Source of the DNA: an uncultured Clostridia bacterium
GTDB taxonomy: Bacteria > Bacillota > Clostridia > Lachnospirales > CAG-274
Assembly: GCA_949948985.1 (NCBI GenBank)
Contig: CATLIG010000022.1
Coordinates: 1-39,999, forward strand
Reading direction: 5' to 3'
DNA length: 39,999 nucleotides
The notes under the pieces were generated by a model. That model searched no databases and was not told where the DNA came from. It saw only the letters and a program-made list of their open reading frames with translations. Below, piece after piece: positions 1 through 16,118 of the stretch; position 1 is the first letter of the stretch; every line of letters begins with the position of its first letter. The position numbers and the translations under genes were made by a program.

Positions 1-2
1 GT

Positions 3-775
3 GACACCCGTATTTTTGACATTGTGACGGAGGACGGGAAGGAAAAAAGAGTCCTCAACAAAAAAGAAACCACGCTGGCAAGCCAGAAGCAGGAAGCAAT
101 CCGGGAAGCCTTTAAGGACTGGGTATTTCGTGATCCGGAGCGCAGGCAGGATTTATGTGCAAAATATAATGAGCTTTTCAATTCCACCAGACCGAGGGAA
201 TATGACGGTTCGCACTTAAAATTTTCCGGCATGACGCCGGACATTGTACTCAGACCACACCAGCTTAACGCTGTGGCGCATCAGTTATACGGGGACAACA
301 CGCTCCTTGCCCATTGTGTGGGTGCGGGAAAGACCTTTGAAATGATTGCGGCGGCAATGGAAAATAAGAGGTTGGGATTGTGCCAAAAGAGCTTATTTGT
401 TGTTCCAAACCATTTGACGGAGCAGTGGGCAAGTGACTTCCTGCGCCTGTATCCGGGGGCGAATATCTTGGCGGCAACCAAGAAAGATTTTGAACCCGCA
501 AACCGGAAGAAGTTCTGCTCCCGGATAGCAACGGGAGATTATGACGCTGTGATTATCGGTCACAGCCAGTTTGAAAAAATCCCGCTTTCCACCGAAAGGC
601 AGATGGCGATGATTGAAAGGCAGATAACAGAAATTGAAATGGCTATCGAATCTTTAAAAGCGGAGAATGGCGAGCGTTATTCCATTAAGCAGATGGAAAA
701 GACGAAAAAATCCCTGTCCGCAAGGTTGAGCCGCCTGAACGATTCCAGCCGGAAGGATAATGTTGTGACCTTCGA
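3..775 (+). pseudogene. SNF2-type helicase of an ICE, middle portion, interrupted by an insertion
   Basis: This is part of a very large DEAD/SNF2-like helicase (often fused to a DNA methylase) found in Tn1549-like and related conjugative elements. The frame is already open at base 3, so the GTG at 24 is not the real start and the gene begins outside the window. Visible are the [12 protein letters not shown] segment and a Walker A motif HCVGAGKTF (about 306-332). The ICE-derived sequence ends at ...NVVTF, and translation then runs into element DNA to a stop at 861-863. The missing continuation, EQLGVDRLFVDESHN, is found in frame at 37690, which fixes the breakpoint. GC is visibly higher than in the 36.9 kb that follows. 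The split separates Walker A from the DESH box, so the gene is almost certainly inactive while the element is present. Family identity is from recall; the break is read directly. Confidence 0.88.
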
Positions 776-778
776 CTC
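769..778. other. Left junction of the 36.9-kb element (attL)
   Basis: Target sequence ending TTCGA (771-775) meets element sequence CTCATATATAATAAG. The GA at 774-775 is the proposed 2-bp crossover shared with the right junction. The helicase reading frame departs from family sequence exactly here. Confidence 0.75.
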
Positions 779-784
779 ATATAT

Positions 785-839
785 AATAAGACTAAACAGA
801 GAATCCCGTATAACAAAGGGGTTTCTGCTTAGTCTTATT
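785..839. repeat. Imperfect hairpin at element left end
   Basis: The arm at 785-807 (aataagactaaacagagaatccc, read in two parts: aataagactaa and cagagaatccc) pairs with 818-839 (ggggtttctg and cttagtcttatt), with one substitution and about one bulged base. It starts only 9 bp inside the element. It lacks a clean U-run, so it could be a recombinase-binding or insulating structure as easily as a terminator. Confidence 0.6.
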
Positions 840-881
840 TGCGTTCTTGAAAATTTAATTTGAAAGATTTTCAAGAACGCA
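840..881. repeat. Perfect 15-bp inverted repeat
   Basis: TGCGTTCTTGAAAAT (840-854) is exactly complementary to ATTTTCAAGAACGCA (867-881), with a 12-nt loop. It follows directly on the hairpin at 785-839. An A-rich run follows on the plus strand, so it is not a classical plus-strand terminator. It may stop or shield transcription entering from either side. Confidence 0.75.
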
Positions 882-919
882 TAAAAAATTATTATTTTTT
901 CTTCTATTAATTACTTATC

Positions 920-935
920 TTTTCTTCGAAGAAAA
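920..935. repeat. 16-bp palindrome
   Basis: TTTTCTTCGAAGAAAA is a perfect palindrome, followed on the plus strand by ttattgttttatt. It could act as a weak plus-strand terminator insulating the switch segment from ICE transcription. Function is inferred. Confidence 0.4.
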
Positions 936-961
936 TTATTGTTTTATTAGACGACAAAACA

Positions 962-987
962 TTCGTAGAATATCACATTTTACGAAC
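962..987 (+). repeat. Inversion site, left (IRL)
   Basis: The arms TTCGTAGAAT and ATTTTACGAA flank the 5-bp spacer ATCAC, followed by C. This matches the reverse complement of 2378-2403 with one mismatch (G at 968). Ten-bp inverted arms around a short spacer are the usual core-site layout for tyrosine recombinases. Confidence 0.85.
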
Positions 988-1003
988 AATCTCAATTATA
1001 TTT

Positions 1004-1032
1004 ATAATATCATTTTTATGTAAATTTGTCAA
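1004..1032 (-). promoter_or_regulatory. Near-consensus sigma-A promoter inside the invertible segment
   Basis: On the minus strand, TTGACA (1032-1027), a 17-bp spacer and TATTAT (1009-1004) give a -35/-10 pair with a single mismatch to consensus and optimal spacing. Transcription would start near 997 and cross IRL leftward, where there is no gene, only hairpins at 785-881 and then antisense to the broken helicase. Inversion would aim it at the Tad operon with a leader of about 145 nt. Confidence 0.8.
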
Positions 1033-1175
1033 TCAAATAACAAATTAATTCAAAAAAATATATTATATTTGGAATATAAAGGCTAAAATTAACCGGTAAA
1101 ACAGATAAAAGTTGTCTGAAAAATTTTTTAAAGCAGTCAAAATTATGGTCATATGATGAAAGGAAGTATGGATTT

Positions 1176-2306
1176 ATGTCAAGAAAAGGTGAGAACATTT
1201 ATAAAAGAGCTGACGGACGCTGGGAAGGAAGATTTAAATACGGCTTTGATAAAAACGGCAAAGCGAAATATAAATCTGTATATGCAAAAACATATAAGGA
1301 TTGTAAAGAAAAAATGAATAATGAAAAAAATGTGAGAGACACAGAAAAAAACAATATAAAAATTTCATTGACGGTAAAAGAACTTTTATTGATATGGATT
1401 GAATGTATTTTAATAAATATAAAAAAATCGACAGCCGATACTTATATGGCAATTATTGACAATCATATTATTCCGTCTATGGGAAATATGTCTGTCAATA
1501 TGGTAAGTACAGAATATTTAAATAAATTTACATCAGAAAAAATAAATAACGGACGTCTTGACGGAAAAGGCGGATTATCAGCGAAAACAGTACAAAACAT
1601 AGTAGGTGTGATAAAATCAGCTTTTAAATATTCTGAAAAAATTTACGGTATAAAAAATCCGGCGGCTTTTATAACTATGCCTAAAACCCAAAAGAAGGAA
1701 ATAGAAGTTTTAAGTGATTTGGAAGTAATGAAAATAAAAGAATATTGCAATAAAAATCCCGATTATTTTACGGTTATATATGATTTATGTCTTTCAACGG
1801 GCATACGAATAGGTGAATTATGCGCTTTGCAATGTGAGGATATTGATTTCGAAAACGGTATTTTAACAATACGAAAGACTATACAAAGAGTTAAAAATAA
1901 TGATAATTCATCAGATTGTAAAACAAAAATTATAATATCTTCACCTAAAACAAAAAATTCTTTAAGAAAAATTCCTTTGCCTGAAGGATTAATAAAAAAA
2001 CTTCAGGAGTTTGTAGCATCAAAAGGAGAAAAAGATTTTATATTTTCATTTGACGGTAAAAAACCTCTCGATGTCAGAACAGTACAGAAGAAATTTGCTT
2101 GCATTTTGAAAAAATGTAAGATAAGGAAAGTAAAATTTCATATTTTACGCCATACTATGGCGTCTAAATGGGCGAACTCAAATTTTGACATAAAGGGTTT
2201 AAGTGAGATTCTTGGACATTCAAGCGTAAATATTACGCTTTCGCTGTATGTTCATTCTTCCGTTGAAACAAAAAGAAAGCATATGAATGAGTTATTTGTA
2301 GCCTAA
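1176..2306 (+). CDS. Tyrosine site-specific recombinase, candidate invertase
   Basis: This 376-residue tyrosine recombinase starts at ATG with AAAGGAAG upstream. The N-terminus (MSRKGENIYKRADGRWEGRF) is the arm-binding-like domain seen in Tn916-type and inversion-associated integrases. A core-binding SAM-like domain lies at about 65-160 and the catalytic domain at about 180-370. Catalytic residues are visible: Arg in TGIRIGE (about 210), HxLRH (HILRH, about 322-326), His in LGHSS (about 347) and Tyr in LSLYVHSS (about 358). The gene lies wholly between two inverted recombination sites. It probably flips the segment carrying itself and the outward promoter; the serine recombinases at the other end are better candidates for element integration. 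An alternative is that it is the element's integrase, but inverted flanking sites argue against this. Confidence 0.93.
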   Translation: MSRKGENIYKRADGRWEGRFKYGFDKNGKAKYKSVYAKTYKDCKEKMNNEKNVRDTEKNNIKISLTVKELLLIWIECILINIKKSTADTYMAIIDNHIIPSMGNMSVNMVSTEYLNKFTSEKINNGRLDGKGGLSAKTVQNIVGVIKSAFKYSEKIYGIKNPAAFITMPKTQKKEIEVLSDLEVMKIKEYCNKNPDYFTVIYDLCLSTGIRIGELCALQCEDIDFENGILTIRKTIQRVKNNDNSSDCKTKIIISSPKTKNSLRKIPLPEGLIKKLQEFVASKGEKDFIFSFDGKKPLDVRTVQKKFACILKKCKIRKVKFHILRHTMASKWANSNFDIKGLSEILGHSSVNITLSLYVHSSVETKRKHMNELFVA

Positions 2307-2377
2307 ATTTTTAAACCGTCAAATTTTCCGTCATAAATGTGTAATTTTGCTTTAAGTTTAGGAATATTTTATTAGTC

Positions 2378-2403
2378 GTTCGTAAAATGTGATATTTTAC
2401 GAA
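2378..2403 (-). repeat. Inversion site, right (IRR)
   Basis: The plus strand reads G, then arm TTCGTAAAAT (2379-2388), spacer GTGAT, arm ATTTTACGAA (2394-2403). The arms are perfectly complementary. The spacer is the exact reverse complement of the IRL spacer, so the pair is in inverted orientation. An outer complementarity, ATTTTGCTTTAA (2343-2354) with TTAAAGCAAAAAT (2411-2423), encloses the site and may form a larger structure in the tad leader. Only a weak promoter-like pair (TTGATA 2405, TATTAA 2428) is seen between IRR and tadZ. Confidence 0.85.
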
Positions 2404-2512
2404 ATTGATATTAAAGCAAAAATAATATATTAATATTATTTTAAAAAGATGTATTTTTATGTATGCCAATAGCAATATGTAAAATTTATATGATTATTGC
2501 GGGAGGAATTTT

Positions 2513-3562
2513 ATGGCAAAATTAAATATTATTATTTTAGACAGTGACAAAATATTTTTGGAGAAAATATCAAGTTATCTTATAAACAAAACAAATAATT
2601 TTACAGTTTCATTTTTTACAGATTTTGAAAAATTTAAAGAATTTATAGGGAACACAAAACAGGATATTATTCTTTTTTCAGACGAGTATATAAGCCGGAT
2701 AAAATTTTTTGAGAGCAGTGCGGTAAAGATATTAATAACTGAAACATCTGAAGCTGCGACGGACGAATATGCATCAATAAAAAAATATCAGAAACTTGAT
2801 AAATTTGTAAATGATATTTTGTTTACATATTCTGAAAAAACAGGCGACAGCAGTTTCATAGTATCTGATAACAAGGAAAAAAAGATTATTGCTGTTTATT
2901 CTCCTGTTGGAGGGAGCGGCAAAACAACGTTATCAATACTTCTTGCCAAAAACCTTTCTCTGAGTAGGGCAAAAGTGCTGTATCTGAACTTTGAACGGGT
3001 TTCTTCGATGGCAGGTATTTTTAACAATGACGGAATAAATAATATGACTGATATATTTTTTGCGGCGAAAACCAATAAAAAAAATATTCCCGCAAAAATC
3101 TTATCAAATGCGGTTCAGAATCAGGCAAGCAAAATTTATTATATAAATCCTGCTGAAAGCTGTACAGAATATGCTCAGATGACAGATGAGGAAATTATGG
3201 ATATTATTCACGCGGCGGAAGGGTTAAAGGAATTTGATTATATAATAATTGACTTTGTAGGAGAGTTTAACAAACGAGTATTTGAAATTTTAAAAAGGTG
3301 TAGGAAAGTTATATTTCCGTATTTAAATAATGAGCTTTCAAAGCAGAAGGTTACTTTATTTAAAAATGAAATGATAAAACTTAAATATGAGGAATCTATT
3401 TTAATTAATACAATATTTGTTGAAAATATGTCAGACAAAGGTTTTTCTGATGATGAAATTTTGAAAATTCCGTATAACGAAAATTATAAAAATATACAAA
3501 CCGCACTAAGAAATCATAACATCGGATTTAACGATTTAGAGCCAATTATAAGACAGTTATAG
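2513..3562 (+). CDS. tadZ: TadZ/CpaE-like ATPase, pilus localization factor
   Basis: A 349-residue MinD/ParA-superfamily protein. The N-terminal 110 residues look like an atypical receiver domain (KLNIIILDSDKIFLEKISSY start), as in CpaE/TadZ. A P-loop follows at about 130-140 (YSPVGGSGKTTLSILLAKN) and a Walker-B-like stretch YIIIDFVGEF at about 243-252. In this family the protein places the pilus machine at a cell site and is the first gene of clostridial Tad loci, which fits its position here. It starts at ATG after GGGAGG with good spacing, 15 bp ahead of tadA. It is the first gene downstream of the proposed switch, so a promoter brought in by inversion would transcribe it first. Confidence 0.9.
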   Translation: MAKLNIIILDSDKIFLEKISSYLINKTNNFTVSFFTDFEKFKEFIGNTKQDIILFSDEYISRIKFFESSAVKILITETSEAATDEYASIKKYQKLDKFVNDILFTYSEKTGDSSFIVSDNKEKKIIAVYSPVGGSGKTTLSILLAKNLSLSRAKVLYLNFERVSSMAGIFNNDGINNMTDIFFAAKTNKKNIPAKILSNAVQNQASKIYYINPAESCTEYAQMTDEEIMDIIHAAEGLKEFDYIIIDFVGEFNKRVFEILKRCRKVIFPYLNNELSKQKVTLFKNEMIKLKYEESILINTIFVENMSDKGFSDDEILKIPYNENYKNIQTALRNHNIGFNDLEPIIRQL

Positions 3563-3577
3563 AATTGAGGGATTTTT

Positions 3578-4813
3578 ATGTCGGAGAATACCAACGATTT
3601 GATTTATGAAATAAAATCTAAAGTTGCTGAACTTATGGATTTAACAAGGGATATTGATGATGATGAAATTAAGGAAATTATTTATAAGGTAATTACTGAA
3701 AAATCTCTTGAAGATTATCTTACTATTGCTGAAAAAAAAGACCTTTTTAACAATGTGTTTAATTCTATGAGAGGATTAGATGCACTTCAGCCTTTAGTTG
3801 ATGACCCGTCTATAACGGAAATTATGATTAATGGTCCTGATAATATTTTTATTGAAAAATCTGGTCGGCTGTATAGGGTGGAAAATACTTTTTCAAGTAC
3901 GGCAAGCCTTGAGAATGTTATACAAAATATTGTATCAAAAGTAAACAGAATAGTTAATGAATCTTCTCCTATTGTTGACGCGAGACTTAAAGACGGTTCG
4001 AGGGTAAATGTTGTACTTCCGCCTATTGCTCTTGATGGACCTACAGTAACAATAAGAAAATTTCCCGAAAATCCTATGACTATTTCTCAGCTTATCGCTT
4101 ATAAATCAATAACGCCGGAGGTTGCGGAACTTCTTGAACGTATGGTTAAAGCAAAATACAACATTTTTATAAGTGGTGGTACAGGTTCCGGAAAAACAAC
4201 TTTTTTAAACGCATTATCTAATTTCATACCGAAAGATGAAAGAATTATTACAATTGAAGATTCAGCGGAACTGCAAATAAAGGGTGTTGAAAATCTTGTG
4301 AGAATGGAAACAAGAAACGCAAATACCGATGGAAAAGGTGAAATAACTATGCGTGACCTTATAAAATCTTCTTTAAGAATGCGACCTGAACGTATTGTTG
4401 TGGGAGAAGTCAGAGGAGCTGAGGCTTTAGATATGCTTCAGGCAATGAATACAGGTCACGATGGCTCACTTTCCACAGGTCACGCGAATTCTACCGCCGA
4501 TATGTTAAGCCGTCTTGAAACAATGGTTTTAACGGGAGCAAATATGCCGCTTGACGCGATAAGGCATCAGATGGCTTCGGCTGTTGATATTATTATACAG
4601 CTTTCAAGGTTAAGGGACAAGTCAAGAAGAACTGTAGAGATAAGCGAAGTTCTGAACTATGAAAACGGTGAGATAAAAATGAATCCTCTGTTTAAATTTG
4701 TTGAACTTGGCGAGGATGAAAATAAAAAAATAATAGGCAATTTAAAAAGAACCGAAAATCCAATGGTTAATACGTTTAAATTCAAAATGGCGGGATTGTC
4801 AGACAAAGTATGA
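3578..4813 (+). CDS. tadA: TadA/CpaF-type secretion ATPase
   Basis: A 411-residue type II/IV secretion ATPase of the GspE/VirB11 superfamily that powers Flp pilus assembly. Visible are the N-terminal domain (DDPSITEIMINGPDNIF), Walker A ISGGTGSGKTTFLNAL (about 197-212), an Asp box IITIEDSAELQ, Walker B-type RIVVGEVRG (about 271-279) and a His box DGSLSTGHANS. Length is typical for the Tad family. GAGGG precedes the ATG. The neighbours are TadZ upstream and TadB/TadC downstream, the usual order. Confidence 0.95.
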   Translation: MSENTNDLIYEIKSKVAELMDLTRDIDDDEIKEIIYKVITEKSLEDYLTIAEKKDLFNNVFNSMRGLDALQPLVDDPSITEIMINGPDNIFIEKSGRLYRVENTFSSTASLENVIQNIVSKVNRIVNESSPIVDARLKDGSRVNVVLPPIALDGPTVTIRKFPENPMTISQLIAYKSITPEVAELLERMVKAKYNIFISGGTGSGKTTFLNALSNFIPKDERIITIEDSAELQIKGVENLVRMETRNANTDGKGEITMRDLIKSSLRMRPERIVVGEVRGAEALDMLQAMNTGHDGSLSTGHANSTADMLSRLETMVLTGANMPLDAIRHQMASAVDIIIQLSRLRDKSRRTVEISEVLNYENGEIKMNPLFKFVELGEDENKKIIGNLKRTENPMVNTFKFKMAGLSDKV

Positions 4814-4826
4814 AGGGAATGATAGT

Positions 4827-5645
4827 GTGGCTAAGAAGAAAAAAGATAAAAAGGCTGAAAAGGAACTGCGAAAAACGCAATGGGAACAGCAGCAAGCGGG
4901 AATTATCGACTATGACGTTTACATAATGAGCAAAAAAGAAAATATTATTAATATTATTTTTGCTTATTGTATTATTTTTATTGTTGGTATGATTTTTTAT
5001 CATAATCCTATTCTTGCGGCTTTGCTCGGATTGTTTGCTTTCAAATTTCCTAAAATAAGGACTAATTCCATCATAAAAAAAAGGAAAAGCAGTCTGACTA
5101 TACAGTTTAAGGACTTGTTATATTCCGTTTCATCATCAATGGAGGCAGGGCGTTCTATTGAAGCGGCTTTTAAAGACGCTTTAAGAGATATGGCAATTAT
5201 TTATCCTAATCCCGAAACGCCGATTATGAAGGAAACCGTTTTTATTGTAAGAAAAATCGAAATGAATGAGCCAGTGGAGCAGGCTTTGCTTGAATTTGCC
5301 AAACGTTCGCATATAGATGATATTGAAAATTTCGCCGATATTATCAGCGTTTGTAAAAGGACAGGAGGAAATCTTGCGGAGGTTGTAAGAAATACATCGC
5401 AGGTAATTGGAGATAAAATAGAAACAAAAAGAGAAATCGAAACCACTATTACAAGCAAGAAATTTGAAAGCAGAATTATGTCAGTTATGCCTATTGCTAT
5501 GGTATTTTTGCTTTCCGTATCATCTCCGGAGTTTATGGAACCTGTTTTTACAACGATTACAGGAAATATTGTTATGACTATTGCGATTTTTATGTTTACT
5601 ATTGCGTTTTTTGTTTCTGAAAAAATTGTTGATATTGAGGTGTAG
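4827..5645 (+). CDS. tadB: TadB-like inner-membrane platform protein
   Basis: A 272-residue GspF-domain protein starting at GTG (GAAGGGA 8 bp upstream). It has a lysine-rich N-terminus, two membrane segments at about 35-65 (IINIIFAYCIIFIVGMIFY), the cytoplasmic T2SSF helix bundle (SSSMEAGRSIEAAFKDA; CKRTGGNLAEVVRNTSQVI) and C-terminal membrane helices at about 215-265. It pairs with TadC to form the platform on which TadA works. It lies 13 bp after tadA and 3 bp before tadC, so translation is probably coupled. Confidence 0.92.
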   Translation: MAKKKKDKKAEKELRKTQWEQQQAGIIDYDVYIMSKKENIINIIFAYCIIFIVGMIFYHNPILAALLGLFAFKFPKIRTNSIIKKRKSSLTIQFKDLLYSVSSSMEAGRSIEAAFKDALRDMAIIYPNPETPIMKETVFIVRKIEMNEPVEQALLEFAKRSHIDDIENFADIISVCKRTGGNLAEVVRNTSQVIGDKIETKREIETTITSKKFESRIMSVMPIAMVFLLSVSSPEFMEPVFTTITGNIVMTIAIFMFTIAFFVSEKIVDIEV

Positions 5646-5648
5646 TTT

Positions 5649-6593
5649 ATGTTTATGACAGTTGCTTTCTGGATTGTAAAAGGTCTTAATTTATTATTTC
5701 TTGCTGGTGTGGGAGTAATTATTGTTGTTGCTTACAGTAAGTCAAAAGGTGTATATGATGAATATATTGAACCTCTTGACGAGGAAAAATTTAAAATGAA
5801 AAAATATTTGCCTGTCGGATTGTATTTAAGCGAAGCCTTTCCTTTAAGGAAATTTGCCTTTTCAAAAATGTCGGAGCCTTATTATAGATATACAGAAAAT
5901 GTAAAAAGAAATATTACAGAAATTTATACAAGCAGATATTCAGATTATTACTATGAAATACATACCGCAACAAAATATCTTGCCGGAATTTTTTCTTTTG
6001 CTGCTTGTATGCTTTTAAGCGGAGCCTGCTGTATTCAGAATGACGGAGATAATGTAAAATTATTTTTTGCCGCAGCGTTTATTTTGGGGATAGGATTTCC
6101 TTTTTTAATTGACAAGGGATTAAATGACAAAATTCAAGAGAAAAGACTTTCTATACAAATAGATTTTCCTGAATTTATAAATAAAATGCTGTTGCTTGTT
6201 AATGCCGGTCTTACCATAAATAAAGCGTGGGAAAAAATTGTTGCCGACAACAGAAAAGATACTCCACTTTACAGAGAACTCAGCATAACTATGGCTGAAA
6301 TAAGAGCGGGAAAAGGAGAAGCGCAAGCTTATGAGGAATTTGCGAGAAGATGTAAAATTAATGAAGTTATTAAGTGTGTGTCAATAATTGTATTGAACCT
6401 TAAAAAAGGCGGTTCACAAGTTGTTCCGGCTTTAAGAGAACAGGCTGACGATTGTTGGGAATTAAGAAAAGCGGCAGCAAAACAGCAAGGTGAAAAAACA
6501 AGCAGCAAGCTGATGATTCCTATGGCTATTATGCTTATAGGTATTATTATGGTAGTTGTGCTTCCGGCTGTGCTTAGTATGAGCGGAATTTAG
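5649..6593 (+). CDS. tadC: TadC-like inner-membrane platform protein
   Basis: A 314-residue second T2SSF-domain protein. An N-terminal membrane helix (VGVIIVVAYSKSK) is followed by a basic cytoplasmic stretch, two helices near 113-150, a T2SSF domain with EFINKMLLLVNAGLTINKAWEKI and LNLKKGGSQVVPALREQADD, and a C-terminal helix MIPMAIMLIGIIMVVVLPAVL. GAGGTG (5636-5641) sets the ATG at 5649. Partner of TadB. Confidence 0.92.
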   Translation: MFMTVAFWIVKGLNLLFLAGVGVIIVVAYSKSKGVYDEYIEPLDEEKFKMKKYLPVGLYLSEAFPLRKFAFSKMSEPYYRYTENVKRNITEIYTSRYSDYYYEIHTATKYLAGIFSFAACMLLSGACCIQNDGDNVKLFFAAAFILGIGFPFLIDKGLNDKIQEKRLSIQIDFPEFINKMLLLVNAGLTINKAWEKIVADNRKDTPLYRELSITMAEIRAGKGEAQAYEEFARRCKINEVIKCVSIIVLNLKKGGSQVVPALREQADDCWELRKAAAKQQGEKTSSKLMIPMAIMLIGIIMVVVLPAVLSMSGI

Positions 6594-6617
6594 CTTTGAT
6601 ATTGGGAGTATAATTTT

Positions 6618-7760
6618 ATGAAAAAAAATATACTATTTTTAAAAACACTATTTTTATTAACATTGCTGACATTAATAAATATTAACGTATATGCAAATGA
6701 CAACGTTGATATAAATGACGCTATGATAAAATCGGGTTATCAAGTTTTTCAAAATGATAATTTGCTTCAAGAATTTGAAGCGTACAAAAGTGCTTTGAAT
6801 TATGCTGAAAGATGGAAAAACGCTACGATTGTATATAAAGGTGTTTTGCGGCATAACTTTCCTGATATAAAAAAAGTTTCTGTTCAGGAAAACAAAGGAA
6901 ATTCAACTTTGAGTCTTCCAGCACTTGAAATATATCAAAACGGAAATCAGATTAATCAGATTGAAAATTTTGATGAAGCCTGCGGTTACGCAAATAGGTA
7001 TGCAAACAGTTTTGTATATGGCAAAATCATAATTTGGGATAATTATCCTAAATATTACTATTATCAGGGAACTGAGAAATTTACCTGTAAAAGTATATAC
7101 GAATATTTATCTGTAAAAAAGAAAAATGAAATTACATCTCCTTTGTATGTAGCAAACACAGAAGAAAAAGCCTATGAACTTATAAAAAGTTGTAATCATA
7201 AAATACAAAATGTTAAATGTATTGCGCAAAATCCTGAATTGCCGAGAGGATGTGAGGTTACAAGCCTTGCTATGATGCTTAATTATAATGGAATTAAAGT
7301 ATCTAAAATGGAACTTGCGAAAGAAGTAAAAAAAATACCTTATAAAGAAGATCCTAATAAAGGTTTTATAGGAAATATGTATAATATGAGGCAGTTTGGA
7401 TTTGGCGTATATCATACGCCTATAGCGGAACTTGCTGAAAAATACGTTCCCGGAAAAATTGTAGATATTACAGGCTCTGATTTCGAGGATATTTATTATT
7501 ACATACTAAAAAATAAACCTGTTTGGGTAATAAACAATACTTCATTTAATGCGTTAGGAGAGGATTCCTTTCGATATTGGGATACTCCATCAGGAAAAGT
7601 CAGAATTACATATTCGGAACATTCGGTACTTGTTACAGGCGTTGACGAAAGATATGTTTATATAAACGATCCTTTGACAGGAACATCAAGAGCATTAAAT
7701 AAAAATAATTTTATTAAAGGTTGGATTCAAATGGGCAGACAATGTGTTGTTGTTGGTTGA
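6618..7760 (+). CDS. Secreted C39-like cysteine peptidase within the Tad operon
   Basis: A 380-residue protein with a clear signal peptide (two Lys-rich positions, then LFLKTLFLLTLLTLININVYA). The mature N-terminus holds two related segments (about 35-75 and 97-140) sharing an 'ALNYAERWKNATIVYKG' / 'ACGYANRYANSFVYGKI' pattern. The C-terminal half (about 190-375) is peptidase C39_2-like: Cys in LPRGCEVTSLAMMLNYNGI (about 210) and His in YSEHSVLVTGVDERYVYINDPLTG (about 335). It should act outside the membrane. Being between tadC and the pilin gene suggests trimming or attachment of pilins or of the giant surface protein, but no substrate is proven. GGGAG precedes the ATG. Confidence 0.8.
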   Translation: MKKNILFLKTLFLLTLLTLININVYANDNVDINDAMIKSGYQVFQNDNLLQEFEAYKSALNYAERWKNATIVYKGVLRHNFPDIKKVSVQENKGNSTLSLPALEIYQNGNQINQIENFDEACGYANRYANSFVYGKIIIWDNYPKYYYYQGTEKFTCKSIYEYLSVKKKNEITSPLYVANTEEKAYELIKSCNHKIQNVKCIAQNPELPRGCEVTSLAMMLNYNGIKVSKMELAKEVKKIPYKEDPNKGFIGNMYNMRQFGFGVYHTPIAELAEKYVPGKIVDITGSDFEDIYYYILKNKPVWVINNTSFNALGEDSFRYWDTPSGKVRITYSEHSVLVTGVDERYVYINDPLTGTSRALNKNNFIKGWIQMGRQCVVVG

Positions 7761-7781
7761 TTAATTTCCTTTTGATAGATT

Positions 7782-7832
7782 AACAATCAGTTTTTTTGAG
7801 TAACTTAATTTTATCGCAAATTTCTGATTGTT
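7782..7832 (+). repeat. Inverted repeat downstream of the C39 gene
   Basis: AACAATCAG (7782-7790) and CTGATTGTT (7824-7832) are perfect complements; the loop begins with seven T. It may partly end transcription between the machine genes and the pilin gene. Confidence 0.45.
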
Positions 7833-7872
7833 TCTATATATGAAATAACTTTAGCAGCAAATAAAAATAGTA

Positions 7873-7920
7873 TATGTGTAAAAATTGTTTAAATAATATG
7901 TTTTTGGCATTTTACACATA
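7873..7920 (+). repeat. Inverted repeat in the pilin leader
   Basis: TATGTGTAAAA (7873-7883) pairs perfectly with TTTTACACATA (7910-7920) around a 26-nt loop. It ends 33 bp before the pilin start. A leader hairpin of this kind could protect the 5' end of pilin mRNA; an operator is the alternative. Confidence 0.5.
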
Positions 7921-7953
7921 GCTATAAAACATTTGGGAAAGGAGGGAATACCT

Positions 7954-8163
7954 ATGGTTAAGCTTTTCAAAGATTTTTGGTATGAAGAAGACGCAATGGG
8001 TACTGTTGAAATTGTTATTATTATTGCGGTTTTGGTGGCTATTGCTATCATATTTAAAGATTCTATTTATAATTTTGCGAGTGATATGATGAAAAAAGTA
8101 TTTACAAGTGATAACGCAAATGTCGAAAAAGATAAAGCTCCAGTTTATGGTGGCGGAGGCTGA
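7954..8163 (+). CDS. flp: Flp-type major pilin
   Basis: A 69-residue Flp1-family prepilin. The start is the ATG at 7954 because AAAGGAGG lies just upstream; the longer TTG frame at 7933 reads through that ribosome-binding site. Short N-terminal leader MVKLFKDFWYEEDAMG, then TVEIVIIIAVLVAIAIIFKDSI, the hydrophobic assembly helix, then a short polar tail ending in Gly repeats. Glu sits at +5 if cleavage is after Ala (DA|MGTVE), matching the same spacing in the two TadE-like proteins. It is flanked by strong hairpins on both sides, as expected for a gene needing far more product than its neighbours. Confidence 0.88.
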   Translation: MVKLFKDFWYEEDAMGTVEIVIIIAVLVAIAIIFKDSIYNFASDMMKKVFTSDNANVEKDKAPVYGGGG

Positions 8164-8178
8164 TAATTAAGTATAACA

Positions 8179-8203
8179 TCTTCTCTTTTTAATAAAGAGG
8201 AGA
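8179..8203 (+). repeat. Small hairpin after the pilin gene
   Basis: TCTTCTCTTT pairs with AAAGAGGAGA (one G-U), loop TTAAT. It overlaps by 2 nt with the next, larger hairpin, so the two would compete at their bases. Confidence 0.5.
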
Positions 8204-8243
8204 TATACAAGCACAGATGCTTAAGTATCTGTGTTTGTATATC
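8202..8243 (+). terminator. Strong intercistronic hairpin, partial terminator or mRNA stabilizer
   Basis: A 17-bp stem: GATATACAAGCACAGAT (8202-8218) with ATCTGTGTTTGTATATC (8227-8243), one G-U pair, 8-nt loop. Only a short TTTGC follows, so termination would be incomplete. It sits between pilin and tadE and would hold the 3' end of a short, abundant pilin transcript. Confidence 0.7.
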
Positions 8244-8262
8244 TTTGCAAGGGGGTATTTAT

Positions 8263-8865
8263 ATGAAAAAACATAAAGCAATGTTTACATTAGAAGCAAC
8301 AATTGTTGTTCCAACTATTCTGATTGCGATTTTTGCGGTGCTTTTTGCTTTTCAAGTCTTGTATCAGTATGTTGTTATTGAATATGCGGCGTCTTTTGGT
8401 GCTGAAAGAGGGGCTATGCTATGGGATTATGATTATAGTGGGGTTGACTTTGTAAAGGGGACGGTTGGTGAAAAAAACAATTTATATTTTGATTTGGATT
8501 TTTTCGATTGGGGTGGAGAAAAAAATGAAAAGACACAAAGAATAGAAATGGAAACTAAAAAGATTGCGGATTCTTTAACTCTTGTAGGCGGAGATATTAA
8601 AGTATCAGCAAAAACTAAAAACAGTATTATCGGAAACAGTATTGAGGTTACAGTTACACAAGATATTAATATTCCGTTTCAAAGTCTGATTGCCTATTTC
8701 AATAATGGAAATATGGGCTTGACTTCTAAAAGCTCCGCAAGTCTGTATGACCCTGATGAGTTTATAAGGAATTCAGATTATCTTTATGAGCTTGCTAATT
8801 CTATCATAAGTCAAGTAAAAAGTAATTTTGATAAAATAAAGAGTAAAAAGAGTGAAATGAAATAA
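8263..8865 (+). CDS. TadE-like pseudopilin
   Basis: A 200-residue protein with a short basic leader and a pilin-like helix (MFTLEATIVVPTILIAIFAV, Glu at +5 relative to a cut after Ala). The start at ATG 8263 is set by GGGGG at 8251-8255; the ORF opens slightly earlier. The extracytoplasmic part has no recognised domain. TadE-like proteins are minor pilins processed by the same prepilin peptidase; order after the pilin supports this. Confidence 0.82.
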   Translation: MKKHKAMFTLEATIVVPTILIAIFAVLFAFQVLYQYVVIEYAASFGAERGAMLWDYDYSGVDFVKGTVGEKNNLYFDLDFFDWGGEKNEKTQRIEMETKKIADSLTLVGGDIKVSAKTKNSIIGNSIEVTVTQDINIPFQSLIAYFNNGNMGLTSKSSASLYDPDEFIRNSDYLYELANSIISQVKSNFDKIKSKKSEMK

Positions 8866-8892
8866 ATTTGTTTTTGGAGAGGGCGTATTTGC

Positions 8893-11499
8893 ATGATAAA
8901 AAAGCATAAAGGTGGAATTAGTATTTTCCTCATAATAATTGTTATGTCAACAGTTATTTTCGGAGGGGTTTTCGTTGATTTGACAAGAGTGTTGGTTGCG
9001 AAAAACAGGGTTAGAACAGCAACAGAATCGGCAGTTCGTTCTACTCTTGCGGATTATAGTGATAAATTGGTTTCTGAATGGGGACTTTTTGGACTTAATA
9101 CTAATGATGTAGATATTAATGCAAACTTTAAAAAATATCTTGAAAGTAATCTTGATGTAAGCAATAAGGAAAATAAAGCTAATTTGATAAATTATGAAAT
9201 AGTAAACGCAAATGTTATATCAAATAAAAATTTAGGAAACCCTGATGTTTTTCAAGAAAAAATTAATGAATATTCAAAATATAGAGCGCCTGTAAATTTA
9301 TGTCTTGGAGTTATTGACAAATTTAAAGCTATTTTTTCAAAGGATAACTCTCCTGAAATCGGTATAGATGTTGCGGGAACTATTGAGAATAAAATCGGGG
9401 ATATGACGAAATCTTTTGGTGGACTTAAAGAAATAAAAACTAACCTTTCAAAAGAAGTAAGTGAATCGGGAGCAGGAAAAATAAATACTAATGGTTCGTT
9501 TAACAATATTGATATGGGAGTTTTTGATACTTTGAAAAATAAAGTTGATTCTTCTGTGGATGATTCTAAAAATAAAATTGATACGTATAAAAAAAGCGTT
9601 AAAGATTATCAAGAGGAGGGAAAGAATGAAACAGAAAATTATTCTCAAAAAATTATGAATAATATAAAAACAGACGGCAGTGAAAATGGAGTTATTGAAG
9701 ATACTGAAAAAACTAAAATTGAAGCTAATAAACAAGTATATAGTGAATCAAAAGATATAGAATACTATGATGATGACGAAAAGAAAAAAGAAAAAGAATT
9801 GGAAGAGCAGCAAAATGAGAAAATTAAAAAAGAAAAAGAACTTATTGATAATATTAATAAAAGATCAGATAACTCAAAAGCTAAAGGTGATAATCTTAAA
9901 ACTGAAACAAATAAATTGATTGACGAGGCAGAAACAGCCGCTGAAGATTATAATGCTGCGGTAAGAGAATATAAAAGCTATTGTAATATTATTGAGGAAA
10001 ATATGAAATCTGCAGGAATTAATAAATCTATTGATGAGATACTGTATTATGATATGCAAAAAGCGGAAAAAGATGTAAATAGAGTTACTGAAATCAGCAA
10101 TTCTATCGCTATGCAAGGTGAAACAGCTTTAAAAGAAGAGCAAGCAGCGATAAAAAAGACAATTAAATTATTGTCTGACTTTGAGAAAGAAGAAATTAAA
10201 ACAAAAAAAATCACCAATAAAGAAGAAATTAAAAAATTTATTAAAAATCCTGAAAATAATAAATACATAGAAATAAAATCTTTTATTTTAGGCTATTGCA
10301 GTGAAACAAAAGAAAGAAGTATTGACGAATATCTTCAAGAGATACAACAAGAATTAGGAAAAAAATTAATAGTAATTGAGTACAATTTAGAAAAAATAAA
10401 AGAATTAGATAAACTTTTAGAATCTGATTATGAAACAAAACAATTTGTTGTTAATAATAAGAAAAATATAAATAATGCTCTTTCTGCTAAAAGAAAAGTT
10501 GAGGAAAAAGTGAATATATATAATCAAAAAATTGAAAAAGTCGAGCAAATTAACGTTTATGAAAAAATGGAAGTTGAGGAAATAGACAATTTACCAAAAG
10601 AGGTTATAGGTGAAGGGGACACCGATGTCGATACTTCGGAATTTTTTGACAAAATAAATGAAATTAAAGATAAAATAAATAATATATTCAACGAATTAAC
10701 AAAAACAATGCCTTCTGCCTCTGCTGTTAAAAACAAAGATGATGAACTTAGCGGTATAAGCGGAAAAAGTTTTAATATTTTTAAAAAGCTGCAAGATAAA
10801 TTTAATGAAATTAAAAAAGTTGTTACAAATCCGGGAAATAAATTTTATCTTGTAGATTATATTATGAGCAAATGCACTTATGTTACGTCGCAAACGGGAC
10901 GTGAGCATTATTTTAAATGGGGAGAGGTTGAATATATTATTTACGGAAAAAAAAGTCAGGCTGAAAATATATTATATGCAGTAGGAGAAATTGCATTAAT
11001 TCGGCTTGCTATAAATGCGGTTAATTATTGGATAACAACTCCTGGTGAACTTATTACAAGAACTGTTTCAGCAGTTGTAAGAGGTCTTGCGAGGACAGCT
11101 TTAGATATGACGACAATGTTGTTGGATACTGGTACGGGAAGTGATAAAGGACTTATTGCGATTTGTCCGTCTTTAAGTAAATACAAGGTATTATCATACT
11201 CAGACCATTTAAGACTTTTGCTTCTTATAAAATGTAAGGAAAACGGAGGAGCCGACGCATTAAGAAGATGTATTCACGTTACAATGAAAGAAATGGGTGA
11301 AAATATAGCTGCCACAGACGGGGATAATGTCCTTGGTTCTTCTCAGTATCTAAGTGAATATTCAACAGAGATAACCGGCAGCGCGGAAGTTGACGTAGAC
11401 TTATATTTTATACCTTTGCTTTTGCCTGATTTTATGAATTTTGGTTCAATACATAAGGGTAAATATACAGTTTCAAGCACAATTACTTATGGTTATTGA
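8893..11499 (+). CDS. DUF5702-type TadG-like protein with long coiled coil
   Basis: An 868-residue protein with an N-terminal membrane helix (GGISIFLIIIVMSTVIFGGVFVDLTR) followed by the ATESAVRSTLADYSDKLVSEWGLFGLN segment typical of DUF5702 proteins in clostridial Tad loci. Residues about 200-600 are highly charged Lys/Glu-rich and predicted coiled coil. The C-terminal part (about 640-868) returns to globular family sequence, with the recognisable YKVLSYSDHLRLLLLIK stretch. It is anchored by the N-terminal helix with the bulk outside the membrane. Likely a pilus-base or tip-associated protein; DUF5702 function is not established. GGAGAGGG precedes the ATG. Confidence 0.78.
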   Translation: MIKKHKGGISIFLIIIVMSTVIFGGVFVDLTRVLVAKNRVRTATESAVRSTLADYSDKLVSEWGLFGLNTNDVDINANFKKYLESNLDVSNKENKANLINYEIVNANVISNKNLGNPDVFQEKINEYSKYRAPVNLCLGVIDKFKAIFSKDNSPEIGIDVAGTIENKIGDMTKSFGGLKEIKTNLSKEVSESGAGKINTNGSFNNIDMGVFDTLKNKVDSSVDDSKNKIDTYKKSVKDYQEEGKNETENYSQKIMNNIKTDGSENGVIEDTEKTKIEANKQVYSESKDIEYYDDDEKKKEKELEEQQNEKIKKEKELIDNINKRSDNSKAKGDNLKTETNKLIDEAETAAEDYNAAVREYKSYCNIIEENMKSAGINKSIDEILYYDMQKAEKDVNRVTEISNSIAMQGETALKEEQAAIKKTIKLLSDFEKEEIKTKKITNKEEIKKFIKNPENNKYIEIKSFILGYCSETKERSIDEYLQEIQQELGKKLIVIEYNLEKIKELDKLLESDYETKQFVVNNKKNINNALSAKRKVEEKVNIYNQKIEKVEQINVYEKMEVEEIDNLPKEVIGEGDTDVDTSEFFDKINEIKDKINNIFNELTKTMPSASAVKNKDDELSGISGKSFNIFKKLQDKFNEIKKVVTNPGNKFYLVDYIMSKCTYVTSQTGREHYFKWGEVEYIIYGKKSQAENILYAVGEIALIRLAINAVNYWITTPGELITRTVSAVVRGLARTALDMTTMLLDTGTGSDKGLIAICPSLSKYKVLSYSDHLRLLLLIKCKENGGADALRRCIHVTMKEMGENIAATDGDNVLGSSQYLSEYSTEITGSAEVDVDLYFIPLLLPDFMNFGSIHKGKYTVSSTITYGY

Positions 11500-11513
11500 T
11501 ATGAGGTGAGATT

Positions 11514-12437
11514 GTGAAAAAAGAAAAAGGTTCTTTGGCTATTGAGGCAACTATATCATTTACGGTTTTTCTTTGTTTTATGTTTGTTCTTATGACAATA
11601 GTTAAATTGTCTATGGTATATATTACATTAAATGATGTTACAAGTGAAACGGTTAAAAAGATTGCGGGAATGTCCTATCCTCTGTCATACGTCAATGATT
11701 TTGTTGATGCTGAGGCGGCAAATGTAAAGAACTTTGTTGATGAAAAGAAAGAAAGTATAACTGATTTAGCAAATAAAAACGGTGCTGAATCTATATTGCA
11801 GGAATTGGGATTTGACGGTGGGATAGAATCAATAATTGGCGAGGCGGAAACTGTTATGAAAAACTTTGCCGATAATATTTTAGGTAAATTAGAAAGTTTT
11901 AAAATAAATAAGCAAACTGAATTAGCCGCTAATATTTATTCTGGTTTACTTGATAAAACTAATATGCCAATTGATAAGTCTAAGGTTAATGTTAAATATT
12001 TTACACTGCCTCAGTCAGAAGCGGAATTTAAGTATTCTAAGCAGCTTGCTCCTGATTTGACTAGTCTTGATGAAAGCAGGCTTGATAAAGACGATGTTGT
12101 TTTAGTTGTTGAATATGATTATACAATAGCAATTCCTTTTTTTCCAGCCTATGATGTAAAACTTAAAAGTATGGCTGTTGAAAAGGCATGGCTCGATGGA
12201 GGAAATCACGTTGTACCGGCGAAAAGAGAAGGTATAAAAGTTGATGTGGAAACAAGCCCTATTGTTTATTATACTAATACGGGAAAAGGTCAAAAATATC
12301 ATAGAGAGAATTGTATGACTCTTGTAAGATCGGAGAAAAACGGGAATAAACGAATGACTATAGAAACTAATGCGGCAGAAGAAAAGGGATTAAAACCTTG
12401 TTTGCTATGCAAGCCATATGAACCTAAAAAAGAGTAA
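11514..12437 (+). CDS. TadE-like pseudopilin with C-terminal Cys-rich (Ada-type) motif
   Basis: A 307-residue protein starting at GTG (GAGGTGAG upstream). The leader KKEKG is followed by SLAIEATISFTVFLCFMFVLM, a prepilin-like helix with Glu +5 after Gly. The middle is helical. The last 55 residues carry IVYYTNTGKGQKYHRENCMTL...EKGLKPCLLCKP, the YHxxxC / PCxxCKP pattern of Ada-type metal-binding domains found at the end of many clostridial extracellular proteins. It may bind metal or form disulfides outside the cell. It overlaps no neighbour and sits between the DUF5702 gene and a prepilin peptidase gene. Confidence 0.75.
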   Translation: MKKEKGSLAIEATISFTVFLCFMFVLMTIVKLSMVYITLNDVTSETVKKIAGMSYPLSYVNDFVDAEAANVKNFVDEKKESITDLANKNGAESILQELGFDGGIESIIGEAETVMKNFADNILGKLESFKINKQTELAANIYSGLLDKTNMPIDKSKVNVKYFTLPQSEAEFKYSKQLAPDLTSLDESRLDKDDVVLVVEYDYTIAIPFFPAYDVKLKSMAVEKAWLDGGNHVVPAKREGIKVDVETSPIVYYTNTGKGQKYHRENCMTLVRSEKNGNKRMTIETNAAEEKGLKPCLLCKPYEPKKE

Positions 12438-12451
12438 GATTGGAGAATTTT

Positions 12452-13045
12452 ATGAATTATGTAATTTGTTCTGTATTTTTTCTTGTATTTGTATCAGGTT
12501 TTGTATTTGCGGATATTAAACTAAAATTAATAAATAAAAAAGTTTTGTATATACCTTTAATAATTATTATTGGACTAAATATATACTCAATGATTCTTTT
12601 TAAGGGAATGAGTATTTATTTTTCTGTTATGTATTTAGCGGCGGAATTTATATTGATGATACTTAGTTTTTGGGATATAAAAGAAAAAGAAATCCCTGTT
12701 ATATACATATACTGCCTTTTGTTGTGCTGTGGAATTATGATGCTGATAAATCCTTATTGCAATATAATAAACAATATAATTACAGGAGTAATAATTACAG
12801 GGGTATTAGCGCTATTTTACAGGCTGAAAAAAGAAAGCGTGGGACTTGGCGATATAGAAGTTATTGCCGCGTTATCTTTTTCATTTGGGTATCCGCATAT
12901 TTTTAATATATTATTTGCTGCTTTATTTATAGCAATGATTTTCGGAATGATTCTTTTGATTATAAAAAGGGCAAAACTAAAAGCAGAAATTCCTTTTATA
13001 CCTTTTTTGTGTTTAAGTGTTATTTTAAATATAATTAATTTTTAG
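12452..13045 (+). CDS. Prepilin peptidase, A24 family (first copy)
   Basis: A 197-residue polytopic membrane protein. The start ATG 12452 follows GGAG at 12442-12445; the ORF opens at a TTG nearer the preceding gene. The two catalytic Asp of A24 aspartic peptidases are visible: FWDIKEKEIP (about 70) and GLGDIEVIAALSF (about 134). It cleaves prepilin leaders at the membrane. A second, divergent copy lies at 14641-15168. Confidence 0.82.
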   Translation: MNYVICSVFFLVFVSGFVFADIKLKLINKKVLYIPLIIIIGLNIYSMILFKGMSIYFSVMYLAAEFILMILSFWDIKEKEIPVIYIYCLLLCCGIMMLINPYCNIINNIITGVIITGVLALFYRLKKESVGLGDIEVIAALSFSFGYPHIFNILFAALFIAMIFGMILLIIKRAKLKAEIPFIPFLCLSVILNIINF

Positions 13046-13063
13046 AGGGAGGATTTGATTATT

Positions 13064-14629
13064 GTGCAAAATCTCAATATTAACTATGAATATTCAAATA
13101 ATAAAAAAAATATTTCTGCTAAAGTTAACGATATTTCCGAAATTAAGGAAAGTCAGCTTAAAATGTTATTGAATAATGACATAAGCTGTTTATTGCCTGT
13201 CAAGTTTATGCAGACAGAAAAAATGGGGTCTTTGTATTATAATGCAGACAATATGTATGCTTTCTCGGAAATGTTTGGCAGAAGAAAAATGAACATCTCT
13301 GATTTTATTAGCTTTTCAAAAAGTTTTTTATATATGCTTGATGAAATAGAAGGATATCTTCTTTCCTCAAAAGGAGTGTTGTTAGATTGCAGATATATTT
13401 TTTATGATGAAATTGCGGAGGACTATAAATATGTGCTTATACCGATAGAAAATGAAGATTTGCGGGATGAGGAAATTTTGTTTTTCTTTGGTGAGGTACT
13501 CAAAAATTATTATGAAAATATATATGATGACTTTGCGAAAGAAGTTGCTGATATTATAAGAGGTAATGGGAAAATCAATGATATAAGCAGGCTAATAAAT
13601 AAATATGATTCAAAGTCAATATTGGGAAAAATAAAAAACAATATGGAAAATCAGACAGAAAATTCTCAATTTGAAGAAGATATTATATTATCAGACAGAA
13701 AAAATTCTCCATTTGGTATAAGTCCGCAAAAACCAAAAGTCAGAAATAAATCCCAAGTGGATAAGGTTTCCAAAGCTGATAAAATTACTGAAAACAAAGA
13801 AAAAAAATCATCGGTAAAAATTGTTGCCTTTATCGCTGTTCAGGTTTTGGGAGTGGCAATAATCGTGAAGATTGGTATGAGCGGGATTGAAATAAGCAAG
13901 ATTGTCGCTTTAGTTATACTTTTGCTTGTAGTTGATGTTATTGTCGCAAGAGAATTGTTTTTTAAAAATAAAGATGGTAAGGTTAAGGAGAAAAAGGTTA
14001 AATCGAAAAAAGAAAAGAAAATTAAAGAAGTTAAGAAAGAAGTTCCGTCTAAAATTGAAAATAAAATCAACAATATTCCTATCCATCCTAAAAATGTATT
14101 TGAATCGCCAATACAAAATAGAGAAGAACAATTTGTAGGCGGAGAATTTCAAAAAGAAATGCCTGATGAAATAAATAAACAGGAACAGGATAATAAAGAA
14201 TTTTTTCAAAATCAAAATTTTGCGCAGACACAGAAAGAAAATGACGATACAGAGGAAACAATTTTAATGCCGTTTCCCGCAAACGATATAGAAACAGAGA
14301 AAACAGTTTTAATGCAGCCGTTGGGTTACATAGAGGTCTATGATAAAGAAAACAATATTACCGACAAATATATAATAACTAAAGATAAAACTGTAATTGG
14401 GCGTATGAAAGCACAGGTTGATTTGCAGATTAAAAATTTAATGATTGGCAAAGTTCACGCAGAAGTAATTTTTGAGGGCAATAAACTTTATATTAAAGAT
14501 ATACATTCTTTGAACGGTGTTTATATCGGCGAAAACAAAAATAGAATTGAAAAGGATGTGCCTGTATTTATAAATTCTGGTGAAGTATTGTATTTAGCGG
14601 ATACTAAAATAAAAGTTTATTCTGCTTGA
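13064..14629 (+). CDS. FHA-domain protein with N-terminal DUF6382-like region
   Basis: About 521 residues. GGGAGG lies at 13047-13052; the TTG at 13055 is too close to it, so GTG 13064 is the preferred start. The N-terminal 190 residues resemble DUF6382. Two hydrophobic segments lie near 260-300 (VKIVAFIAVQVLGVAIIVKIG; KIVALVILLLVVDVIVA), then a Lys-rich stretch, then a linker with two Thr motifs (TEETILMPF, TEKTVLMQPL), then a C-terminal FHA domain (about 430-521; TVIGR...KVHAEV...LNGVYIGENK). FHA domains bind phosphothreonine, so this is the likely reader for the downstream kinase. The stop codon overlaps the next ORF's frame. Confidence 0.85.
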   Translation: MQNLNINYEYSNNKKNISAKVNDISEIKESQLKMLLNNDISCLLPVKFMQTEKMGSLYYNADNMYAFSEMFGRRKMNISDFISFSKSFLYMLDEIEGYLLSSKGVLLDCRYIFYDEIAEDYKYVLIPIENEDLRDEEILFFFGEVLKNYYENIYDDFAKEVADIIRGNGKINDISRLINKYDSKSILGKIKNNMENQTENSQFEEDIILSDRKNSPFGISPQKPKVRNKSQVDKVSKADKITENKEKKSSVKIVAFIAVQVLGVAIIVKIGMSGIEISKIVALVILLLVVDVIVARELFFKNKDGKVKEKKVKSKKEKKIKEVKKEVPSKIENKINNIPIHPKNVFESPIQNREEQFVGGEFQKEMPDEINKQEQDNKEFFQNQNFAQTQKENDDTEETILMPFPANDIETEKTVLMQPLGYIEVYDKENNITDKYIITKDKTVIGRMKAQVDLQIKNLMIGKVHAEVIFEGNKLYIKDIHSLNGVYIGENKNRIEKDVPVFINSGEVLYLADTKIKVYSA

Positions 14630-14640
14630 CAGGTGACTAT

Positions 14641-15947: not shown

Positions 15948-15951
15948 TGTT

Positions 15952-16116: not shown

Positions 16117-16118
16117 GT

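Follow-up and report, generated by a model that had tools for sequence, protein, structure and literature searches.

A predicted self-inverting promoter cassette, built around an integrase-type tyrosine recombinase, upstream of a Tad pilus operon in an uncultured Clostridia bacterium

The window analyzed here is the whole of a 39,999-base contig (C22, CATLIG010000022.1) from the 3.29-Mb, 235-contig genome of an uncultured Clostridia bacterium. Near its left end, a segment at 962-2403 carries inverted sites at both ends and, between them, a tyrosine recombinase gene and an outward promoter; an operon for a Tad (tight adherence) pilus, headed by tadZ, follows at 2513. A first-pass annotation of the same letters had proposed that this segment is an invertible promoter that switches the Tad operon on and off. 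Throughout, G numbers denote genomes, L numbers recombinase loci and C numbers contigs. The segment and its immediate surroundings comprise the following features:

830 to 891, plus strand: long hairpin (inverted pair) followed by a T-rich stretch, a possible rightward terminator that might shield the switch from upstream transcription
962 to 986, plus strand: left recombination site, a 10-5-10 dyad with crossover spacer ATCAC at 972-976
1032 to 1004, minus strand: outward promoter TTGACA-17-TATTAT with TG before the -10, at the 5' end of the recombinase gene, pointing away from tad (OFF-like)
1136 to 1151, plus strand: GTCA-N8-GTCA motif before the recombinase start, a candidate arm-type and/or autoregulatory site
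1176 to 2306, plus strand: tyrosine recombinase of 376 amino acids (PF14659 and PF00589)
2318 to 2333, plus strand: second GTCA-N8-GTCA motif, just past the recombinase stop, a candidate arm-type site
2379 to 2403, minus strand: right recombination site, an inverted copy with spacer GTGAT at 2389-2393

The annotation had described two 26-bp inverted sites with a single mismatch, and indeed the arms at 962-987 and 2378-2403 match at 25 of 26 positions. This pair ranks first, with the top complementarity, among the best 25 of the 58 inverted pairs in positions 1-4200; greater length (30 nt at 73%) occurs among the weaker pairs. Sixty sequences simulated from a Markov-1 model of 781-2600 gave top 26-mer inverted pairs of 19-23, never 25, and on this ground a chance inverted repeat was rejected. 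Each site forms a 10-bp dyad around a 5-bp spacer, again as had been claimed: TTCGTAGAAT-ATCAC-ATTTTACGAA on the left, with 9 of 10 arm pairs, and TTCGTAAAAT-GTGAT-ATTTTACGAA on the right, with all 10. The spacers are exact complements and the two 25-bp sites differ by a single base; the window thus holds what an inverton calls for, inverted paired sites with an identical crossover sequence. No further copy of the site, at up to three mismatches, occurs across the 3.29-Mb genome, and action in trans on other sites of this genome was rejected on that ground. We also rejected the 25-bp repeats as att sites of the surrounding 36.9-kb element, as the ends of that element lie elsewhere (~776 and ~37686).

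The gene between the sites, which the annotation had called a tyrosine recombinase, matches both PF00589 and PF14659. Five residues, R211, H322, R325, H348 and Y358, are invariant in 38 aligned proteins, and we take them to be the Arg, His-x-x-Arg, His, Tyr catalytic signature. Profile and fold comparisons agree on the integrase of Tn1549 as the nearest protein of solved structure; it supplies the top six Foldseek matches (template-modelling score 0.62-0.66 on the query) to a structure model with a mean predicted local distance difference test score of 86. In this model, strands at residues 8-10, 16-24 and 30-37 and a helix at 40-58 make up an N-terminal domain. No arm-domain family is among the Pfam matches of the protein; the modelled three strands plus helix lead us to predict that its N-terminus is an arm-binding domain. 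In a conjugative element of the Tn916/Tn1549 type, the integrase joins and moves the two ends of its own element. Here, complete inverted sites flank the gene alone and the surrounding element ends at ~776 and ~37686, so the arrangement is not of that kind; nor is it a Hin-type serine recombinase system, the protein being a PF00589 tyrosine recombinase. The cassette recombinases look like Tn916/Tn1549-type integrases working as invertases.

Two overlapping 11/12 matches, one of them the minus-strand promoter that the annotation saw pointing away from tad, top the 31 found in positions 1-3500, a count to be read against a mean of 15.7 in shuffles of the same AT-rich stretch. After inversion, the computed start would fall near 2368, 145 nt before the ATG of tadZ, in agreement with the roughly 145 bp given earlier. 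By sequence, then, an internal promoter would read out to its target in one orientation only. Between 2306 and 2512 our scan flagged no terminator-like site, and it did not flag the 830-891 hairpin. Across 2300-19500 there was no excess over shuffles of promoter-like sites (94 versus 86) or of terminator-like sites (7 versus 6); the switched promoter might serve all of the 23-kb operon or just part of it.

Relatives of the recombinase occur in 13 of 48 genomes of the family (E 1e-60) and 57 of 392 genomes of the order (1e-50). We examined 96 loci from 49 genomes, a subset of the relatives found that includes five more distantly related integrases (25-28%) from the neighbourhood of the intended ones. 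The best flanking 24-mer inverted pair reached at least 20/24 at 61 of the 96 loci (39 genomes) and at least 21/24 at 56, while 600 control pairs taken from the left and right of different loci yielded two and none, respectively. These site pairs keep near-fixed distances to the gene, the middle half beginning 207-242 bp before its start and ending 92-112 bp after its stop. None of 22 more distant integrases (eight genomes, part of a longer list) had an inverted pair above 18/24; the twenty-third locus in that set is the truncated G028 ortholog. Such site pairs are also present beside Enterococcus plasmid relatives of 30-34% identity, and 10 of 12 matches in plasmid and phage records plus G010:C5 have a pair of at least 21/24. 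In viral contigs, the exact window site was not found, and a single-sequence search detected the recombinase in none of 8 candidate stretches. The window switch is one member of a widespread family of cassettes and not a one-off Tad switch.

Spacers could be aligned at 48 of 62 loci, the other 14 lacking a clear dyad; at L035 the script centre was wrong, and the spacer was read from the site as AAAGT. Within a pair, the 5-nt spacer is identical at 46 of the 48 loci, a figure somewhat inflated because the pairs had been chosen for similarity, which favours matching centres but leaves the contrast between loci untouched. That contrast is strong, with 37 distinct spacers overall and a shared spacer in only 1.2% of draws of two random loci. 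Mismatches between the two sites of a locus fall mostly in the outer arms. Identity of the spacer within pairs is what strand exchange inside a 5-nt crossover requires. Genomes with several cassettes mostly have different spacers in them (spacers entered by hand), although in G036 both ATAAA and TGAAA recur at two loci each, on at least one side. At L042 the two spacers differ by one base (TGAAA and TAAAA), each matching another cassette of the same genome; exchange between paralogs is possible there.

For promoters, orientation and GTCA repeats, the counts refer to 56 of the 61 site-positive loci, near-duplicates having been removed. An outward promoter of at least 10/12 lies within the first 85 bp inside the left site in 40 of these 56 cassettes, compared with 1 of 56 reading inward, 1 of 56 at the right end and 76 of 1120 dinucleotide shuffles; perfect 12/12 outward promoters number 14 of 56, against 0 of 1120 shuffles. 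Where present, the promoter points away from the recombinase and out of the segment. Repeats of the form GTCA-N7-9-GTC stand upstream of the gene in 39 of 56 cassettes (0.1 expected) and downstream in 37 (0.5 expected). From their position, we propose that they are arm-type sites, perhaps also serving autoregulation.

These counts bear on a simple alternative, in which recombinase and tad are transcribed together from the recombinase promoter and orientation is irrelevant. The assembled orientation does have the recombinase reading toward tad with no terminator-like site flagged in between, and this OFF-like orientation is the commoner one in the family. However, the strongest promoter match near the gene (11/12) points the other way, as do the outward promoters of the sister cassettes, and at L046 and L049 hairpins with T runs stand, by eye, between recombinase and right site. 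Co-transcription would also leave the paired sites and the spacer code unexplained, and we consider it very improbable.

Several observations in relatives point to inversion. Loci L178/L113 and L185/L186 share a flank (80% over 554 bp) that carries an Xre-type gene, recognized by eye, and reaches into the site, on opposite sides of the recombinase. L185 and L186 are identical to each other; only the right site is left in them, perhaps a locked switch. L044 and L164 carry homologous nucleotidyltransferase genes, on the promoter side in the former and opposite it in the latter, where outward genes stand on both sides of the cassette. A further pair, L038/L039 of G004, was rejected as an inverted allele, its shared flank stopping ~370 bp before the site and its other flank differing.

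An assembler would be expected to stop at the core shared by the two sites if both orientations were in the sample. In G334 (50 contigs), CGCAGTTTAACTAAAAC closes contig C22 and opens contig C16; this 17-bp string is common to both sites of that cassette and is the sole overlap of the two contigs in the query, and orthologous flanks are in place. Contig C12 of G334 begins at the 13-bp shared core of another cassette, where a neighbouring contig also runs through, which is not fully explained. Cassette-sized contigs point the same way. Among the top 120 homologs of each of two cassette recombinases, 8 and 15 (23 of 240) sit on contigs of 1400-1470 bp, a size range that includes 44 of 69 cassettes, and a control integrase gave 0 of 120 (Fisher p = 6e-5, with the range picked post hoc). 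The count took contigs below 2 kb with proteins of at least 360 amino acids from three lists of 120, using the longest contig per cluster and lengths transcribed by hand. The core breaks in G334 and the cassette-sized contigs fit assemblies broken by mixed orientations.

Could the cassette instead be a minimal mobile element, an integrase gene with transposon ends that excises or moves, its ends not being inversion sites? The closest solved protein is the integrase of Tn1549, whose circular form has AT-rich 11-bp imperfect inverted repeats around a 5-bp crossover (PMC5871717). Similar cassettes occur in many contexts, also side by side, and an element in several contexts would give rise to cassette-sized contigs. 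Each end, however, is a complete two-arm site and not a half site, and the spacers are inverted complements at nearly all aligned loci (46 of 48), so recombination should invert the segment rather than excise it. Cassettes in opposite orientation beside the same flank sequence, and G334 contigs that break at the core common to both sites with orthologous flanks in place, also speak against a mobile element, which we judge quite improbable.

Several observations weigh against inversion, at this locus or in the family at large. The G028 ortholog, whose operon start is 94-95% identical, agrees with the window in its right site and in which end of the recombinase adjoins tadZ, and both readable assemblies of the locus (window and G028) therefore show the OFF-like form. 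Orthologous loci in genus g78 keep one orientation. Plasmids of E. raffinosus, three at each of two loci, show the same orientation and no inversion; for the E. gilvus and E. faecalis loci, no second record covers most of the stretch. Outward genes in the 56 cassettes lie on the recombinase 3' side only (OFF-like) in 29, on the promoter side only in 8, on both in 12 and on neither in 5, with 2 undetermined, and 29:8 (p = 0.0008) is a bias and not an even mix. In a test of contig ends near the recombinase, which drew in extra loci for that purpose only, 10 of 12 were not at the shared core, and the 2 that were both belong to G334. Cassette-sized contigs alone would also suit repeats in several contexts. 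Site pairs fell below 20/24 at 35 of the 96 loci, some of them cut by contig ends, and reached that level at only 3 of 13 loci in viral contigs. To these may be added the choice of similar pairs for the spacer alignment, noted above, and the stretch 2404-2512, which the annotation had singled out as the place where a strong constitutive promoter would tell against a switch. No plus-strand promoter there passes our scanner; under relaxed rules, TTGATA-15-TATATT (10/12, poor spacing) and TTGATA-17-TATTAA (9/12) turn up at 2405, and these matches may mark a weak constitutive promoter upstream of tadZ.

A further alternative is a frozen switch: the family inverts, the window copy does so rarely or no longer, and tad is silent or run by a weak outside promoter. 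The orientation shared by window and G028, the OFF-like majority, the loss of one site in the relative L185 and the candidate at 2405 would all suit it. Yet both sites, the spacer, the recombinase signature residues and the promoter are intact in the window, with one base of difference between the 25-bp sites, and a dead switch should decay; we therefore find a frozen switch unlikely.

Weighing these observations together, we think it probable that the segment at 962-2403 inverts, and that the downstream Tad operon would thereby toggle between the OFF-like state assembled here and an ON state. The idea of a promoter flipped by its own recombinase draws good support from dozens of sister cassettes; the one readable ortholog, G028, has the orientation of the window. 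We regard the switch as very likely real. In general kind it is known; in build it is distinct, an integrase-type, self-contained, addressable cassette. Tad flipping in this species is a prediction. In the mechanism that we propose, the 10-bp arms would form the core site for recombinase made inside the segment, which would probably also occupy the GTCA-N8-GTCA repeats as its arm sites; strand exchange within the 5-nt spacer would then invert the segment. With the segment ON, transcripts would begin near 2368 and read into tadZ; with it OFF, they would leave the segment toward the left end of the element. Strand exchange depends on identical spacers, so that every cassette would have a spacer address of its own and flip without cross-reacting with paralogs that have like arms.

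The operon ahead of which the switch stands, and the element that carries both, are laid out as follows:

2513 to 3562, plus strand: tadZ-like ATPase, first gene of the operon (AAA_31, 3.3e-10; TadZ-like ARD, 1.6e-5, just below its cutoff)
3578 to 4813, plus strand: tadA-type secretion ATPase (T2SSE, 3e-61)
4827 to 5645 and 5649 to 6593, plus strand: tadB and tadC (T2SSF)
6618 to 7760, plus strand: C39-type peptidase (family match)
7933 to 8163, plus strand: small Flp prepilin-like open reading frame (by eye, no family test)
8245 to 12437, plus strand: TadE-like pseudopilin (by eye), Tad/DUF5702 protein at 8893-11499 and a gene without a family match
12440 to 15168, plus strand: prepilin peptidases at 12440-13045 and 14626-15168, and an FHA protein at 13055-14629
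15165 to 18830, plus strand: PP2C phosphatase and Ser/Thr kinase
19390 to 26010, plus strand: SLH-domain protein of 2206 amino acids, possibly under the switch
776 to 37686, ends approximate, no strand assigned: mobilizable element of ~36.9 kb, inserted at TTYGA in a SNF2-type helicase gene

With a TadA-type ATPase, TadB/TadC, a Tad pseudopilin-type protein and a prepilin peptidase, this is a Tad/Flp operon. The annotation had spoken of a complete Tad machine with kinase signalling and an SLH protein; those components, the kinase and the SLH protein are there, the TadZ domain falls below its cutoff, and prepilin and TadE are recognized by eye. A homologous tad operon in G010 (tadA 90% identical in amino acids) lacks any such recombinase in the preceding 6.3 kb, which marks the cassette as an add-on to the operon.

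The mobilizable setting that had been claimed holds in outline. Besides the switch and the Tad operon, the ~36.9-kb element carries MobC, a relaxase and three large serine recombinases. Fragments of the SNF2-type gene at its two ends (left ...VVTF, right ...FEQLGVDRLF) are contiguous in the intact relative L196, and a G028 contig with a similar SNF2-type gene stops at the same TTCGA. The same gene is interrupted twice in the window, by the Tad element (771-775, 37687-37691) and by a second serine-recombinase element near 37890. Also carried by the mobilizable element, at 32128-32646, is a gene for a Cu/Zn superoxide dismutase. Compared with plasmids, the window DNA gave short matches to 24 records; of five listed, three are annotated TadA/CpaF-type ATPases.

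Sister cassettes adjoin genes of many kinds: EssC of type VII secretion at L038 (1209 bits, cutoff 778), a subtilase-LRR giant protein at L037 (where the contig ends before the left site), at L035 an LRR protein at a distance of 0.8 kb from the cassette, nucleotidyltransferase and Alg14-like glycan genes at L044, a VWA-FHA protein at L048, chemoreceptors at L132 and L150, and a nonribosomal-peptide-synthetase-like gene followed by a 2708-amino-acid open reading frame at L051, with relatives at L052 and L053. L051 (G000:C28, sites 1281-2700) is a second cassette of the window's own genome, with perfect 25/25 sites and spacer AAATC; related loci occur in G029 and G004. At L011 a sugar transferase stands on both sides of the cassette, as inverted copies 92% identical (476-1281 and 2638-3442), possibly an either/or switch between paralogs. 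At L164 the cassette is flanked by a nucleotidyltransferase-like gene and, by eye, a Glf-like one, each reading away; this too is possibly an either/or switch. Two adjacent cassettes with different spacers are found at L040, and one cassette with parts of others on both sides at L033. A YpsA/SLOG-family gene adjoins cassettes at L033:2206-2706 (tested) and at L007, L042, L043 and L014 (by motif), and genes with a TnpB/Cas12f1-like domain (PF07282) come first beyond the cassette at L043:440-1816 and L166:5318-6670. At L055 (G028:C255), positions 2965-3015 look by eye like Illumina adapter sequence at the contig end.

Going beyond the single locus, we lean toward the view that these cassettes make up a widespread, unrecognised class of autonomous switches: conjugative-transposon-type integrases locked between two complete sites, each with its own 5-nt address, forming transferable self-inverting promoter cassettes before Tad pili, type VII secretion, giant surface proteins, peptide synthetases, glycan genes and chemoreceptors, with the window cassette and its Tad pilus travelling together on a mobilizable element. 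If so, Clostridia-type bacteria would own a standard module able to make an operon bistable with no need of a separate master recombinase, the spacer address keeping the several switches of one genome apart, and an integrase type known for moving elements would be doing a regulatory job. A survey that held such loci far less common outside Bacteroidales removed invertible regions containing or overlapping genes, so cassettes of this build would have been passed over there (PMC8748976); that view may need revision, and phase variation of Tad pili, type VII secretion and chemoreceptors would be open to read mapping in existing data. In openly licensed literature, at the level of titles and abstracts, we found no described case of Tad pili or tight adherence with DNA inversion, nor of a Tn916-type integrase with promoter inversion, and a search on self-inverting integrases and type VII secretion brought up nothing related.

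Among known systems, the Salmonella Hin segment has a promoter that reads out of one end. Hin is named as an example of a recombinase inside its invertible segment (PMC5903667) and is a serine recombinase with a Fis-bound enhancer (PMC3798978). The cassette shares with it the gene inside the segment and the promoter reading out of one end, and differs in pairing a tyrosine recombinase with Tad where Hin, a serine recombinase, is paired with flagellin. The fim recombinases are encoded outside their invertible segment. In switches of the fim type and in RecV-dependent ones (cwpV, flg), a tyrosine recombinase inverts a segment of 154-314 bp upstream of surface genes (PMC5903667). Enzyme class and position are alike; here, in contrast, the segment spans 1.4 kb, with the recombinase inside and a predicted arm-binding domain on it. 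Nearer in layout is Providencia stuartii, where an 844-bp putative invertible segment encloses a recombinase open reading frame beside a fimbrial locus (PMC5903667); as described there, this is one locus with 14-bp imperfect repeats and a recombinase of unstated type, with no cassette family and no Tad.

In gut Clostridia, inverton group 139 is linked to invertase group 35, of tyrosine-type recombinase/integrase genes (PMC11892184). These groups may overlap the cassette family; the invertases are listed there among proximal, non-intersecting genes. Bacteroidales conjugative elements carry invertible promoters (PMC8748976), like the window cassette in riding on mobile elements and unlike it in having the invertase gene upstream of the invertible region. 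The closest relatives of solved structure are the integrases of Tn1549 and Tn916, with the nearest fold, the same arm-5-bp-arm geometry of each site and, in the Tn916 group, an arm-binding domain of three strands plus a helix (PMC8138268) such as we predict here. Those enzymes move conjugative elements, whereas in the cassettes the integrase gene is the only one enclosed by the two complete sites, and its product would, by our prediction, invert the DNA that encodes it.

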